Below, in pieces: positions 51,843-57,706 of a stretch of 64,000 nt of DNA. A program made the translations under genes and the position numbers. The notes under the pieces were generated by a model. The model was not told the origin of the DNA. It worked only from the letters and a program-made list of their open reading frames with translations, and made no database searches. The DNA comes from Dyadobacter flavalbus (GTDB lineage Bacteria > Bacteroidota > Bacteroidia > Cytophagales > Spirosomataceae), in contig NZ_VBSN01000049.1 of the NCBI RefSeq assembly GCF_006149045.1, positions 558,001 to 622,000 on the forward strand. The letters run 5' to 3'. Position 1 is the first letter of the stretch. Each line of letters opens with the position of its first letter.

Positions 51843-54077
51843 ATGTCGCTTCATCTTTTAGGCATCCGGCATCATGGGCCTGGCTCTTCCAGGCATGTGC
51901 TCAATGCACTTCACGCCATTCGCCCGGACATTATATTAATAGAAGGCCCTCCCGAAGGTGAGAACATGCTGCCATGGGTCATGCATGCGGACATGAAACC
52001 TCCGGTAGCCCTGCTCGCCTATGTTCCTGATAACCCGGATCAGGCCGTCTTTTATCCGTTTGCCGCTTTTAGTCCCGAATGGAACGCTGTCAGGTATGCA
52101 TTGCAGCATAAAATTCCGGTCCGGTTTATTGATATGCCGCTTGCACACAGCCTGGCGAAAGCACAACAGCCTGAAATACAGATTGTACCTGCATTGGAAA
52201 GTTCAGAGGAAAATCAGGTACCAGACCATGCAGACATACTGACGATCAGAAAAAATCCGATTGCTTATCTGGCTGAGATCGCAGGCTTTGAAGATGCCGA
52301 AGAATGGTGGGAACACAAGTTTGAAATTGCAGATCATCCATCTGAGGTATTTAGCGCCATAGCCAGCGCTATGGAGGCTCTGCGGAAAGATTTGCCCCAG
52401 AACAAAAATGATGAAGAAGCGGTGCGGGAAGCCTTTATGCGTAAAGCCATACGGACGGCGCAAAAGGAAATGTACACGAATATAGCCGTAATATGCGGTG
52501 CATGGCATGTGCCTGCATTAAGCAACATGCCAAAGCAGAAAGAGGACGATGTGCTTTTGAAAAACCTGCCGAAAGTAAAAGTGGAAACCACGTGGATACC
52601 CTGGACCAATGACCGCTTGTCATTTGCAAGCTGGTACGGTGCGGGACTGGAATCGCCCGGCTGGTATCATCATGCCTGGCATCATCCGGAAGACAATGGC
52701 GCTTTATGGCTATCGCATGCAGCCCGCGTATTTCGTGATCATCAAATGGATATTTCGTCTGCACACATCATCGAGTCGGTTCGTCTTGCCAATGCGCTTG
52801 CAGGATTAAGACAATTGCAAAGGCCCGGATTAAAAGAATTCAATGAATCCATTCTGGCAGTAATGTGTATGGGTGATCCTATTTTCATGAAGCTTGTTCA
52901 TCAGGAACTGATTGTAGGAAAGGAGTTGGGACAAATTCCGGAAGGCACACCGCAGGTGCCTGTTCAGAGAGATCTGGAGCAACTCATTAAAAAGCTGAGG
53001 TTAAAAATCAGTCCTGATGAAAAAAATATCAAACTGGACCTGAGAGATGAAAATGATCTGCAGAAGAGCATACTGTTCCATCGGCTTATCGTATTGAATG
53101 TGGATTGGGCCGGCTTGCAGCACAGCAGCGGAAAAGGCACTTTCAGGGAAGAATGGCGTTTGCTCTGGTATCCCGAACTGACCATTAAATTACTGGAAAA
53201 AGCGCCTTGGGGCAATACCATAGAAGAAGCTGCCAATAAATATCTGGAGCATGAAGCTCGCAGCTGTACCCGTCTGGATGAAATTACGGTTCTGGTACAA
53301 AAAGCTTTGCCGTCTGACCTGCAAAATGCCGCTGCATCTGCCATGAAACGGATGGATGAACTGGCTGCCAGTACTGCCGACACGACTGTCCTTATGAATG
53401 CATTCGTTCCGCTCGTACGGATCAGCCGTTATGGCAATGTACGCAAAACCGATCTGGATGCTGTGAATTTAATTTTAAAGGCAATTTTTTACAGAATTTC
53501 AGCCGGGCTTCCGCTGAGCTGTACGGGTATTGACGAAGAACAGGCCGCTGTGATTACTGAAAAAATAAAGGATGTAAACCAATCTGTACTCCTGCTGGAT
53601 GACGAAGAACTGAAAACTGCCTGGATAGAAACCATAAGGAAAATGACAGCATTAACGCATGCGGCACCTAAGGTGCAGGGTTACTGCTGTAAAACATTGT
53701 ACGATGCCCATGTACTGGACAATGAAGCAATGAGCGCTGAATTCTCCAAAGCTTTATCAATAAACAACAACCCTGATTTTTCGGCCGCCTGGCTGGAAGG
53801 CTTTTTAAATGATGCTGCAACAGTACTGATCCTTGACGACAACATCTGGAATATCGTAAACAAGTGGCTGCTTGGTCTTGAAGAAGCTGTTTTTCTGCAG
53901 ATCATACCATTGCTGCGGCGCACTTTTTCCATATACAGTAATGTAGAAAAACGCAAGATCGCACAACGGGTAAATCAGGTAAAAGCAGAAACAGGCCATA
54001 TACCCACACAGACGGAGATAGATGAAGAAAGAGCAAAGCAGGTGTTGCCATTGCTGGAAAAACTTATGGGCGTATAA
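51843..54077 (+). CDS. DUF5682 protein, TraB/Tiki-like N-terminal motifs
   Basis: A 744-residue protein of the family DUF5682. Its N-terminus is HLLGIRHHGPGSSRHVLNAL (residues about 4-23), followed by IRPDIILIEGPPEGE (E34), and later ICGAWHVPAL (G219-A-W-H222). These three segments match, in order and spacing, the pattern of TraB/Tiki/ChaN-type proteins (GxxHx(n)S, PDxxxxE, and a late GAxH). If correct it is a metal-dependent hydrolase or protease-like fold at the N-terminus; no catalytic residues beyond these can be read. The C-terminal 450 residues are helical and unrecognised. It is the largest gene of the operon, nine bases before the VWA gene. Confidence 0.82.
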   Translation: MSLHLLGIRHHGPGSSRHVLNALHAIRPDIILIEGPPEGENMLPWVMHADMKPPVALLAYVPDNPDQAVFYPFAAFSPEWNAVRYALQHKIPVRFIDMPLAHSLAKAQQPEIQIVPALESSEENQVPDHADILTIRKNPIAYLAEIAGFEDAEEWWEHKFEIADHPSEVFSAIASAMEALRKDLPQNKNDEEAVREAFMRKAIRTAQKEMYTNIAVICGAWHVPALSNMPKQKEDDVLLKNLPKVKVETTWIPWTNDRLSFASWYGAGLESPGWYHHAWHHPEDNGALWLSHAARVFRDHQMDISSAHIIESVRLANALAGLRQLQRPGLKEFNESILAVMCMGDPIFMKLVHQELIVGKELGQIPEGTPQVPVQRDLEQLIKKLRLKISPDEKNIKLDLRDENDLQKSILFHRLIVLNVDWAGLQHSSGKGTFREEWRLLWYPELTIKLLEKAPWGNTIEEAANKYLEHEARSCTRLDEITVLVQKALPSDLQNAAASAMKRMDELAASTADTTVLMNAFVPLVRISRYGNVRKTDLDAVNLILKAIFYRISAGLPLSCTGIDEEQAAVITEKIKDVNQSVLLLDDEELKTAWIETIRKMTALTHAAPKVQGYCCKTLYDAHVLDNEAMSAEFSKALSINNNPDFSAAWLEGFLNDAATVLILDDNIWNIVNKWLLGLEEAVFLQIIPLLRRTFSIYSNVEKRKIAQRVNQVKAETGHIPTQTEIDEERAKQVLPLLEKLMGV

Positions 54078-54086
54078 TCAAAAACG

Positions 54087-55220
54087 ATGGACAATAAAGA
54101 TGCAGTCAAACGCTGGCGCTTGATACTGGGTAAAGAGACGCACGAAGAATTGAATACGACATTTAGCAAAGAAGAAAATGGCATCGATAAAACATTGGAG
54201 GCGCTTTATAATAGCGAAAGAAAAGGCGGACTTGGCGCTTCTTCTCCCAATGTTTCCCGCTGGCTGGGCGACATACGGGAGTATTTCCCTGCTTCCGTAG
54301 TAAAAATAATGCAGCAGGACGCATTAAAACGGCTAAACCTCACCGCCATGCTCACGGAGCCGGAAATGCTGGAAACAGTAGTGCCGGATATTCATTTGGT
54401 AGCCAACCTGATGACGCTGGGAAAACTGATTCCTGAAAAAACAAAATCAACGGCAAGGCAAGTAGTTAAAAAGGTAGTGGATGAATTGATTCAGAAACTC
54501 TCCGGTCCGACACAGCAGGCTATTACGGGTATGCTGAACCGCGCGGCAAGAAATATTCGGCCTCGCCACAATGAAATAAACTGGAACGAAACGATCCGGA
54601 AAAATCTTAAACACTACCAGCCGGAATACAAAACCATTATTCCTGAAATCCGGATCGGATTTGGCCGCAAACGCAAAGCAATGAAAGATGTGGTACTTTG
54701 CATTGACCAAAGCGGTTCTATGGGCACTTCGGTAATTTACTCCGGCATTTTCGGCGCTGTAATAGCATCCATTCCTGCCATACAGACCAAAATGGTTGTT
54801 TTTGACACAGCCGTAGTTGATCTGACGGAAGAACTTAGGGATCCGGTGGAATTGTTGTTTGGTGTACAGCTGGGCGGCGGCACGGATATACACAAAGCCC
54901 TGAGCTACTGCCAGCAAATCATAAGCCGGCCTCTGGATACTGTACTGGTTCTGATCAGTGACTTATATGAAGGCGGCAATCAGGAAGAAATGCGAAAAAA
55001 GGCCGTTCAGCTTGTAAGCAGCGGTGTGCAGATCATTGCATTGCTGGCATTAAATGACGATGGCGCTCCTTTTTACGACCATCAGAATGCCGAATTTTTT
55101 GCAGCTGCAGGTATTCCTGTCTTTGCCTGTACTCCCGACAAATTTCCGGGTTTAATGGCTGCCGCGTTAAGCAAACAAAACCTGGCTAGCTGGGCGGGAA
55201 GCAATGACATCAAGTTGTAG
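54087..55220 (+). CDS. VWA domain (CoxE-like) protein
   Basis: A 377-residue protein whose C-terminal half is a von Willebrand A domain. The MIDAS metal site is complete: D207-Q-S209-G-S211 (CIDQSGSMG), T266 in GGGTDI, and D292 in ISDLYEGG. The N-terminal half (residues 1-200) is helical with QQAITGMLNRAARNIRPRHNEINWNETIRKNLKHY. VWA proteins of this sort bind MoxR ATPases and hand them substrates, as ViaA does for RavA. It ends the operon; nothing else follows in the same direction until the IS1182 element. Confidence 0.9.
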   Translation: MDNKDAVKRWRLILGKETHEELNTTFSKEENGIDKTLEALYNSERKGGLGASSPNVSRWLGDIREYFPASVVKIMQQDALKRLNLTAMLTEPEMLETVVPDIHLVANLMTLGKLIPEKTKSTARQVVKKVVDELIQKLSGPTQQAITGMLNRAARNIRPRHNEINWNETIRKNLKHYQPEYKTIIPEIRIGFGRKRKAMKDVVLCIDQSGSMGTSVIYSGIFGAVIASIPAIQTKMVVFDTAVVDLTEELRDPVELLFGVQLGGGTDIHKALSYCQQIISRPLDTVLVLISDLYEGGNQEEMRKKAVQLVSSGVQIIALLALNDDGAPFYDHQNAEFFAAAGIPVFACTPDKFPGLMAAALSKQNLASWAGSNDIKL

Positions 55221-57104: not shown

Positions 57105-57221
57105 CGGTCTGGACGGGACTCGAACCGGGCGGCGTTCCGTCCGCGACCCCATGCGTGACACCCTGCGCAGGCCGGGCCATCGTAGCGCGGCATGTATTCT
57201 AACCAACCGAACTACCAATCC
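57105..57221 (-). pseudogene. tRNA-Asp copy with two GC-rich insertions
   Basis: Compared with the intact copies this 117-base tRNA carries 43 extra bases. Read on the plus strand a 15-base GGGCGGCGTTCCGTC interrupts the T arm (after CGAACC), and a 28-base CCCTGCGCAGGCCGGG... lies between GTGACA and GGCATG. In tRNA orientation the latter falls between C32 and T33 of the anticodon loop (CATGCC // TGTCACG). The acceptor stem also has a mismatch (GGATTGG against CCAGACC) and the D arm a change (TTCGGTTGG). It should not give a functional tRNA unless the insertions are removed. The insertion sites are seen; an intron-like role is speculation. Confidence 0.75.
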
Positions 57222-57344
57222 AGTACTTGTAAAGAACTTTATTTTAACCGACGGTATAAATGAAATTCGAACCGGACGGAAGTAGATAATCACTTGCAAA
57301 ATGCAAGATCAAAGACATTCCTTTAATGGATTATTACTGGAAAT

Positions 57345-57378
57345 AAAAAAAGCCCATAAAATATATTACGGGCTTTTA
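57345..57378 (-). terminator. intrinsic terminator after the second tRNA-Asp copy
   Basis: On the minus strand AAAAGCCCGTAATATATTTTATGGGCTTTTTTTATT: stem AAAGCCC/GGGCTTT, tail TTTTTTT, 14 bases downstream of the tRNA at 57392-57465. Confidence 0.75.
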
Positions 57379-57391
57379 CTTAAACTTGAAG

Positions 57392-57465
57392 CGGTCTGGA
57401 CGGGACTCGAACCCGCGACCCCATGCGTGACAGGCATGTATTCTAACCAACTGAACTACCAAACC
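57392..57465 (-). tRNA. tRNA-Asp (anticodon GTC), copy 2
   Basis: 74 nt on the minus strand: acceptor GGTTTGG/CCAGACC, D arm AGTTCAGTTGGTTAGAAT, anticodon arm CATGC CTGTCAC GCATG (anticodon GTC), T arm GCGGG TTCGAGT CCCGT, discriminator G, no CCA. Intact cloverleaf. Its flanks repeat those of the other copies (ACTTGTAAAGAACT upstream, ACTTAAACTTGAA downstream), showing tandem duplication. Confidence 0.95.
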
Positions 57466-57512
57466 AATACTTGTAAAGAACTAAAATAAATTTGCCACTT
57501 CATTCTGCAAGT

Positions 57513-57573
57513 CCCCATGCGTGACACCCTGCGCGGGCCGGGCATGTATTCTAACCAACTGAACTACCAAACC
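57513..57573 (-). pseudogene. tRNA-Asp fragment with anticodon-loop insertion
   Basis: Only the 5' part and the anticodon arm remain (from the 5' acceptor GGTTTGG to GGGG). Between CATGCC and TGTCACGCATG lies a 14-base GC-rich insertion, CGGCCCGCGCAGGG in tRNA orientation, at the same position as in the 57105-57221 copy and sharing its GCGCAGGG end. The T arm and 3' acceptor are missing. It is a truncated copy, not a functional tRNA. Confidence 0.7.
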
Positions 57574-57632
57574 AATACTTGTAAAGAACTTTAAACTTTC
57601 TGTTGTCTATTATAGACAAAACTTAAAACTGG

Positions 57633-57706
57633 CGGTCTGGACGGGACTCGAACCCGCGACCCCATGCGTGACAGGCATGTATTCTAACCAACTGAACTAC
57701 CAAACC
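57633..57706 (-). tRNA. tRNA-Asp (anticodon GTC), copy 4 (first transcribed)
   Basis: 74 nt, identical in its body to the copy at 57392-57465: acceptor GGTTTGG/CCAGACC, anticodon GTC in loop CTGTCAC, T loop TTCGAGT, discriminator G, no CCA. It stands nearest the array promoter at 57741-57770, so it is the first copy in the transcript and probably the main source of tRNA-Asp. Confidence 0.95.

Follow-up and report, generated by a model that had tools for sequence, protein, structure and literature searches.

Short GC-rich hairpin units in redundant tRNA copies of Dyadobacter resemble a probable REP-like insertion unit of Spirosomataceae

Results

An array of intact and interrupted tRNA-Asp copies

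The window, by which we mean the whole stretch of 64,000 nucleotides of Dyadobacter flavalbus DNA that was analysed, holds a tRNA-Asp array of two intact and two interrupted copies (Table 1), bordered by a DDE transposase gene on one side and a DUF34/NIF3 gene on the other. An earlier note had read the array in this way, and its reading is borne out, by ARAGORN and Rfam for the intact genes, which are the only two that these programs call, and by the sequence itself for the interrupted copies (57105-57221 and 57513-57573), which get no tRNA call from Rfam. The coordinates that it gave for these two copies hold as well, as do the lengths of the 28-base insert at 32/33 and the 15-base T-arm insert in the longer one and of the 14-base insert at the same 32/33 site in the other, truncated copy, which lacks the 3' half. 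Both anticodon-loop inserts contain GCGCAGGG, the sequence that the note had named as common to them.

Table 1. Features of the tRNA-Asp array
Feature	Position	Strand	Basis
tRNA-Asp(GTC), intact, first gene of the array	57630..57706	(-)	ARAGORN and Rfam RF00005, 66.4 bits
tRNA-Asp(GTC), intact, second gene of the array	57391..57465	(-)	ARAGORN and Rfam RF00005, 66.4 bits
tRNA-Asp copy, truncated (5' half to about position 46), one unit at 32/33	57513..57573	(-)	Sequence
14-nt hairpin unit CGGCCCGCGCAGGG, between C32 and U33	57527..57540	(-)	Sequence; site and shape recur in other species
tRNA-Asp pseudogene, full-length, interrupted by three units	57105..57221	(-)	Sequence
28-nt insert at 32/33, tandem 14-nt units GCGCTACGATGGCC and CGGCCTGCGCAGGG	57161..57188	(-)	Sequence
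15-nt unit CGGGCGGCGTTCCGT in the T arm, after GAAC^	57126..57140	(+), antisense to the tRNA	Genome-wide unit pattern

The 28-nt insert at 57161..57188 has homologues at two other loci (L007 and L013), and one further genome (G025) holds relatives of the interrupted copy 57105..57221 at 91-92% identity. The copy at 57513..57573 is scored at 81.3 bits by model R1, of whose building set it is a part. When the genome-wide unit pattern described below was applied with up to two mismatches, 57126-57140 was its sole match in the window. A weak Rfam match to YrlA (E 0.003, far under the family cut-off) was read as tRNA resemblance and set aside. We found no phage match for the interrupted copy, and no interrupted tRNA-Asp in the viral contigs searched. 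The spacer at 57240-57300 contains ATTCGAACCGGACGGAAG, which may be the decayed remnant of a T arm that held a unit, and near the array, at 51843-55220, a gene for a DUF5682 protein is followed by one for a VWA_CoxE protein in an operon-like pair.

Interrupted tRNA-Asp copies within and beyond Dyadobacter

The earlier note had proposed a comparison with the tRNA-Asp loci of relatives. When 48 Dyadobacter genomes were searched with the interrupted copy, many of them yielded relatives that contain inserts. With an E cut-off of 1e-9, a covariance model of the tRNA-Asp 5' half plus the inserted hairpin detected interrupted copies in 25 of these 48 genomes, and the 174 other genomes of the family gave none, though this model may miss other forms because it was trained on Dyadobacter sequences. 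We also scanned the genome contigs of about 85,000 species with a pattern for tRNA-Asp that allows 8-38 additional bases at 32/33, and all matches came from Dyadobacter. About half of the Dyadobacter species are without interrupted copies. Where such copies occur, many consist of half a tRNA or have a broken acceptor stem, and they lie after terminators with intact copies alongside. Taken whole, interrupted copies do not fold more stably than shuffled sequences.

Architecture and variation of the hairpin unit

The inserted unit consists of a 3-nt foot, CG[C/G], followed by a stem of 4 bp and a CGN(N) loop of 3-4 nt, for a total of 14-16 bp, and with few exceptions the insert at 32/33 is either 14 nt long or 28 nt long and made of two units. 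Its outer stem occurs at this site as CCT/AGG, CTC/GAG, TCC/GGA, CCG/CGG, GCC/GGC or CCC/GGG. Double-sided changes affect all four stem pairs, the covariation score is 0.69 where shuffles reach 0.20, and over the three outer pairs of 21 unit types 57 of 63 are Watson-Crick and a further two are G-U. In a set of nine full-body copies, divergence between genomes was 0.25 per site in the 32/33 unit and 0.05 in the tRNA body plus T-arm unit, a ratio that is a description and no test, since the set was hand-picked and related sequences were counted repeatedly. The foot and loop of the 32/33 unit are retained while its stem changes fast.

Units in copies of other tRNAs

Relics with the same kind of insert were sought near other tRNAs and found. 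In the window's own genome, a 14-nt unit is found exactly at 32/33 of extra tRNA-Lys and tRNA-Met copies, and the T arm of extra tRNA-Arg and tRNA-Lys copies holds one of 15-16 nt. Across the genus, CGCGCGGCGTCCGC or a close variant stands at 32/33 of Lys, Met and Val copies, and Arg copies have another stem type there. Units in the T arm belong to the same family, lie antisense after GAAC^, and are also present in extra tRNA-Pro and Ser-like tRNA copies; one tRNA-Val copy (L150) has both units while the rest of its tRNA sequence is complete. The recurrent insertion at one site to which the earlier note drew attention is far above chance, given the 25 of 48 Dyadobacter genomes and the use of 32/33 in five isoacceptors; a rough, post hoc estimate puts the chance that five isoacceptors share a C^Y site at about 5e-6.

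Two arrays illustrate how such copies are arranged. One is a tRNA-Lys array in the genome to which the window belongs (L081; G000:C28, about 408000-408600): a 5' copy that carries a unit comes first, then two intact genes, then four copies of the 3' half that have T-arm inserts and terminators. In genome G021 (L178, 1501-2400), seven tandem tRNA-Val 3' parts each have a 32/33 unit and a T-arm unit and are each followed by terminator-like DNA; this series is a repeated tandem duplication of interrupted copies.

A unit interspersed across the family

A search of the genome for further insertions, also proposed in the earlier note, found units in other tRNA copies, in intergenic DNA and in IS genes. 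Outside tRNAs, the Lys/Met/Val-type unit has the consensus CGCGCGGCG[T/G]CCGC and lies in intergenic DNA and in dead IS transposase genes across the Spirosomataceae. With the preceding C included, the exact sequence CCGCGCGGCG[G/T]CCGC occurs in 78 of 222 Spirosomataceae genomes and in 14 of 36 genera, and a reversed-sequence control is almost zero; the highest count of the exact 14-mer in one genome is 77, where the control has none. Order-wide, over 390 genomes, there are few matches outside the Spirosomataceae, mostly in family f12, where the control matches too. In 0.4 Mb samples with up to two mismatches allowed we counted 15 units in G098 and 10 in G008 (controls 1 and 2), samples that were partly picked to contain known copies and so give no unbiased densities. 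Non-coding DNA, which makes up 11-12% of the sequence, holds 11 of these 15 and 6 of these 10 units. Most copies are single; of 12 close pairs in two genomes, 11 are inverted, spacers vary in length (41-151 bp in G098), and no conserved doublet was seen. Two units overlap head to head at G023:C3:156538-156559 and, judged from their overlapping matches on the two strands, should form a perfect palindrome of 22 bp.

Within the DNA that was fetched, the stem types found in Asp copies turned up outside tRNA-Asp only in Arg copies and in one unit near a Y1 gene. What probably ties these stem types to the genome-wide unit, as read from sequence, is a common architecture, site and target rule. Our literature search, which left most subscription papers and preprints outside its reach, found no paper with the 14-mer and none with both Dyadobacter and tRNA-Asp.

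Target sites

At 92 of 97 non-redundant sites the unit follows a C, and the next base on its other side is T in 53, C in 30, A in 13 and G in one, with no other strong signal. Units are found in both orientations, and target duplication is absent, save for a one-base ambiguity that arises because the unit ends in C. A preference for hairpin loops as targets is unsupported, as stems of at least 5 bp surround 10 of the 97 sites against 7.9 expected. The reuse of 32/33 and of the T-arm site needs a target preference beyond C^Y.

The coding targets that we examined are transposase genes, whose frames lengthen when it is removed (180 to 303, 249 to 398, 171 to 219, 197 to 233 and 239 to 358 aa). 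Different IS3-type transposases are struck at identical codons (W^SMDFV, DNG^PEF). Three loci from three genomes (L166, L266 and L290) encode IS3-type transposases that have units at WGF^WK and DNG^PEF and that differ in protein sequence, a strong hot spot. After unit removal, the IS copies at L161, L266 and L290 still hold further units and other lesions, so these copies look dead and the inserts do not look like spliced introns.

Y1 genes and candidate enzymes

Y1 genes are common in Dyadobacter, and the consensus unit was found at none of the 30 Dyadobacter Y1-gene loci that were fetched; one genome (G010) has units and no Y1 gene. The hairpins beside the few Dyadobacter Y1 loci that were read are of other types. 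At L240, L248 and other Y1 loci, RAYT-like Y1 genes are flanked by short hairpins with varying stems (ATGCCGTAGGCAT, GTCGCTACGCGAC), which may be the true REPs of the Dyadobacter Y1 genes. Genera other than Dyadobacter have a small number of variant units close to Y1 genes, including one within another REP-like hairpin, and this proximity may be chance.

Discussion

The most probable account of these observations is that the inserts are copies of a GC-rich palindromic insertion unit of 14-16 bp that is interspersed in Spirosomataceae genomes and enters redundant tRNA copies. The earlier note had offered four explanations (a mini mobile element, gene conversion, a small intron and an assembly artefact), of which the first is the best supported, as units are interspersed across genomes and the family, follow a C, and come without target duplication. 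Transposition is suggested here by sequence pattern rather than by comparison between strains, and our best reading is of an ultra-short REP-like insertion unit.

Several known systems share features with it. Like the REPs of TnpA_REP/RAYT systems, the unit is a short interspersed palindrome with a foot before its hairpin, is mainly extragenic (11 of 15 and 6 of 10 units non-coding), uses C|T-like sites and forms inverted pairs (PMC3733652, PMC8266576). Described REP families have a GTAG or CGTC foot tag and a body of 20-40 bp (PMC3733652), whereas the unit spans 14-16 bp, as CG[C/G] plus an 11-12-nt hairpin, and enters tRNA copies at fixed structural sites. REPs flank a cognate tnpA_REP gene, and the 30 Dyadobacter Y1 loci revealed no such linked transposase. 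The composition of the unit's sites agrees with the CT/CA insertion sites of REPs, an agreement of composition alone in which C|C is also common. The unit is thus REP-like and lies outside the described GTAG/CGTC REP families, where we place it because it is too short, its foot differs, and no linked enzyme was found. Its close neighbours are mostly inverted pairs, as in REPINs and BIMEs (PMC3116915), but most copies are single, the spacers vary and no conserved doublet is shown. With IS200/IS605 elements, which are moved by HUH Y1 transposases, it shares terminal hairpins and the habit of inserting 3' of a fixed short motif with no duplication of the target, but it is geneless and too short for two ends. 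GC clusters and double-hairpin elements are small, mobile-looking, mainly non-coding palindromes of organelles. The mobile palindromes of fungal mitochondria resemble the unit in the same respects (PMC7218506), but all of these elements are organellar, have another sequence, and stand in no known relation to it; those of Fusarium are A/T microsatellites (PMC7218506).

The position of the inserts invites a reading as tiny tRNA introns, or as hairpins that are tolerated, so that interrupted copies would yield working tRNA-Asp, -Lys and -Val. Site 32/33 is occupied by some archaeal introns, and the short tRNA introns of archaea are found there and at other tRNA positions; removal of the insert leaves a complete tRNA sequence in some copies (L008, L150), and the stems covary and keep their pairing. 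We consider this reading unlikely, as we do the small intron of the earlier note, for an intron would be expected in sense orientation in otherwise functional genes, whereas T-arm units are antisense to those at 32/33, many copies are half-length or have broken acceptor stems and adjoin intact ones, and the same unit occurs in both orientations and also outside tRNAs, in intergenic DNA and in IS genes that are otherwise damaged. Group I and group II introns have catalytic cores of hundreds of nucleotides; the inserts have just 14-28 nt and Rfam shows no intron family at the locus, so both were rejected. Selection at the RNA level on structured small RNAs, for example decoys, would explain why the 32/33 unit evolves fast (0.25 per site) and still keeps its pairs (57 Watson-Crick and two G-U of 63), its foot and its loop. 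That idea seems just as improbable, as the copies are often truncated, lie after terminators, are absent from about half of the species, and do not fold more stably as a whole than shuffles.

Anticodon and T loops of tRNAs serve as integration sites, and truncated copies break near unit sites, as might be expected of scars left by tRNA-targeting integrases or larger elements since lost. This is very unlikely in view of clean insertions of the same unit at places remote from tRNAs, both between genes and within IS genes, and of an interrupted copy that has no phage match. Still less credible is a defence-like or repeat-induced system that marks duplicated DNA with a hairpin: IS genes, tandem tRNA copies and intergenic repeats are indeed among the targets, but in G098 and G008 the unit sites are repeated no more often than the rest of the intergenic C^Y sites. 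A short, GC-rich, recurring sequence might also raise suspicion of an assembly or sequencing artefact, to which we give almost no credence, since the inserts occur in many genomes, including ones assembled into one or two contigs, are restricted to one family, and have lineage-specific stem variants that are nearly always complementary. Gene conversion, also named in the earlier note, may account for the conserved tRNA bodies, with intact neighbours at hand, and cannot account for the inserts.

Returning to the insertion unit, we envisage that tandem duplication produced spare tRNA-Asp copies in the window and that units then inserted into these copies, both at 32/33 and in the T arm, which would have left pseudo-tRNAs beside the two intact genes. 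The mover may be an HUH nuclease (Y1, TnpA_REP-like) that handles the unit as single-stranded DNA and cuts at C|T, or it may be another enzyme. Nucleases of the TnpA_REP kind act on single-stranded DNA, which they cleave at C|T and, in one of the systems, at C|A (PMC8266576). In an HUH scheme single-stranded CCGCGCGGCGTCCGCT would be a candidate substrate for Y1 cutting and joining. We hold this single-strand route, the best supported of those considered, tentatively, drawing on the clean C|Y insertion without duplication, the foot-plus-hairpin shape, and the inverted pairs, all of which resemble REP sequences. Gene conversion from intact neighbours could keep the tRNA bodies uniform, and stems at 32/33 might stay paired through palindrome-templated repair, unit replacement, or selection on RNA. 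More speculative again, and rather doubtful, is the view that this is a self-contained transposable unit of 14 bp, perhaps the smallest known, whose enzyme reads structural sites of tRNA genes and which is exchangeable, so that the stem varies while pairing and loop stay.

Overall, the unit looks like a mobile one of a REP-like kind, unusually small and so far undescribed. The reuse of 32/33 and the T arm across tRNAs, and a stem that is fast-changing yet nearly always paired, pose puzzles that can be tested. For annotation of Spirosomataceae genomes there is a practical warning, in that short hairpin inserts can create pseudo-tRNAs and break transposase genes. If the units do move, the lower size bound of interspersed mobile DNA would be very low, and spare tRNA copies would serve as a record of such insertions.
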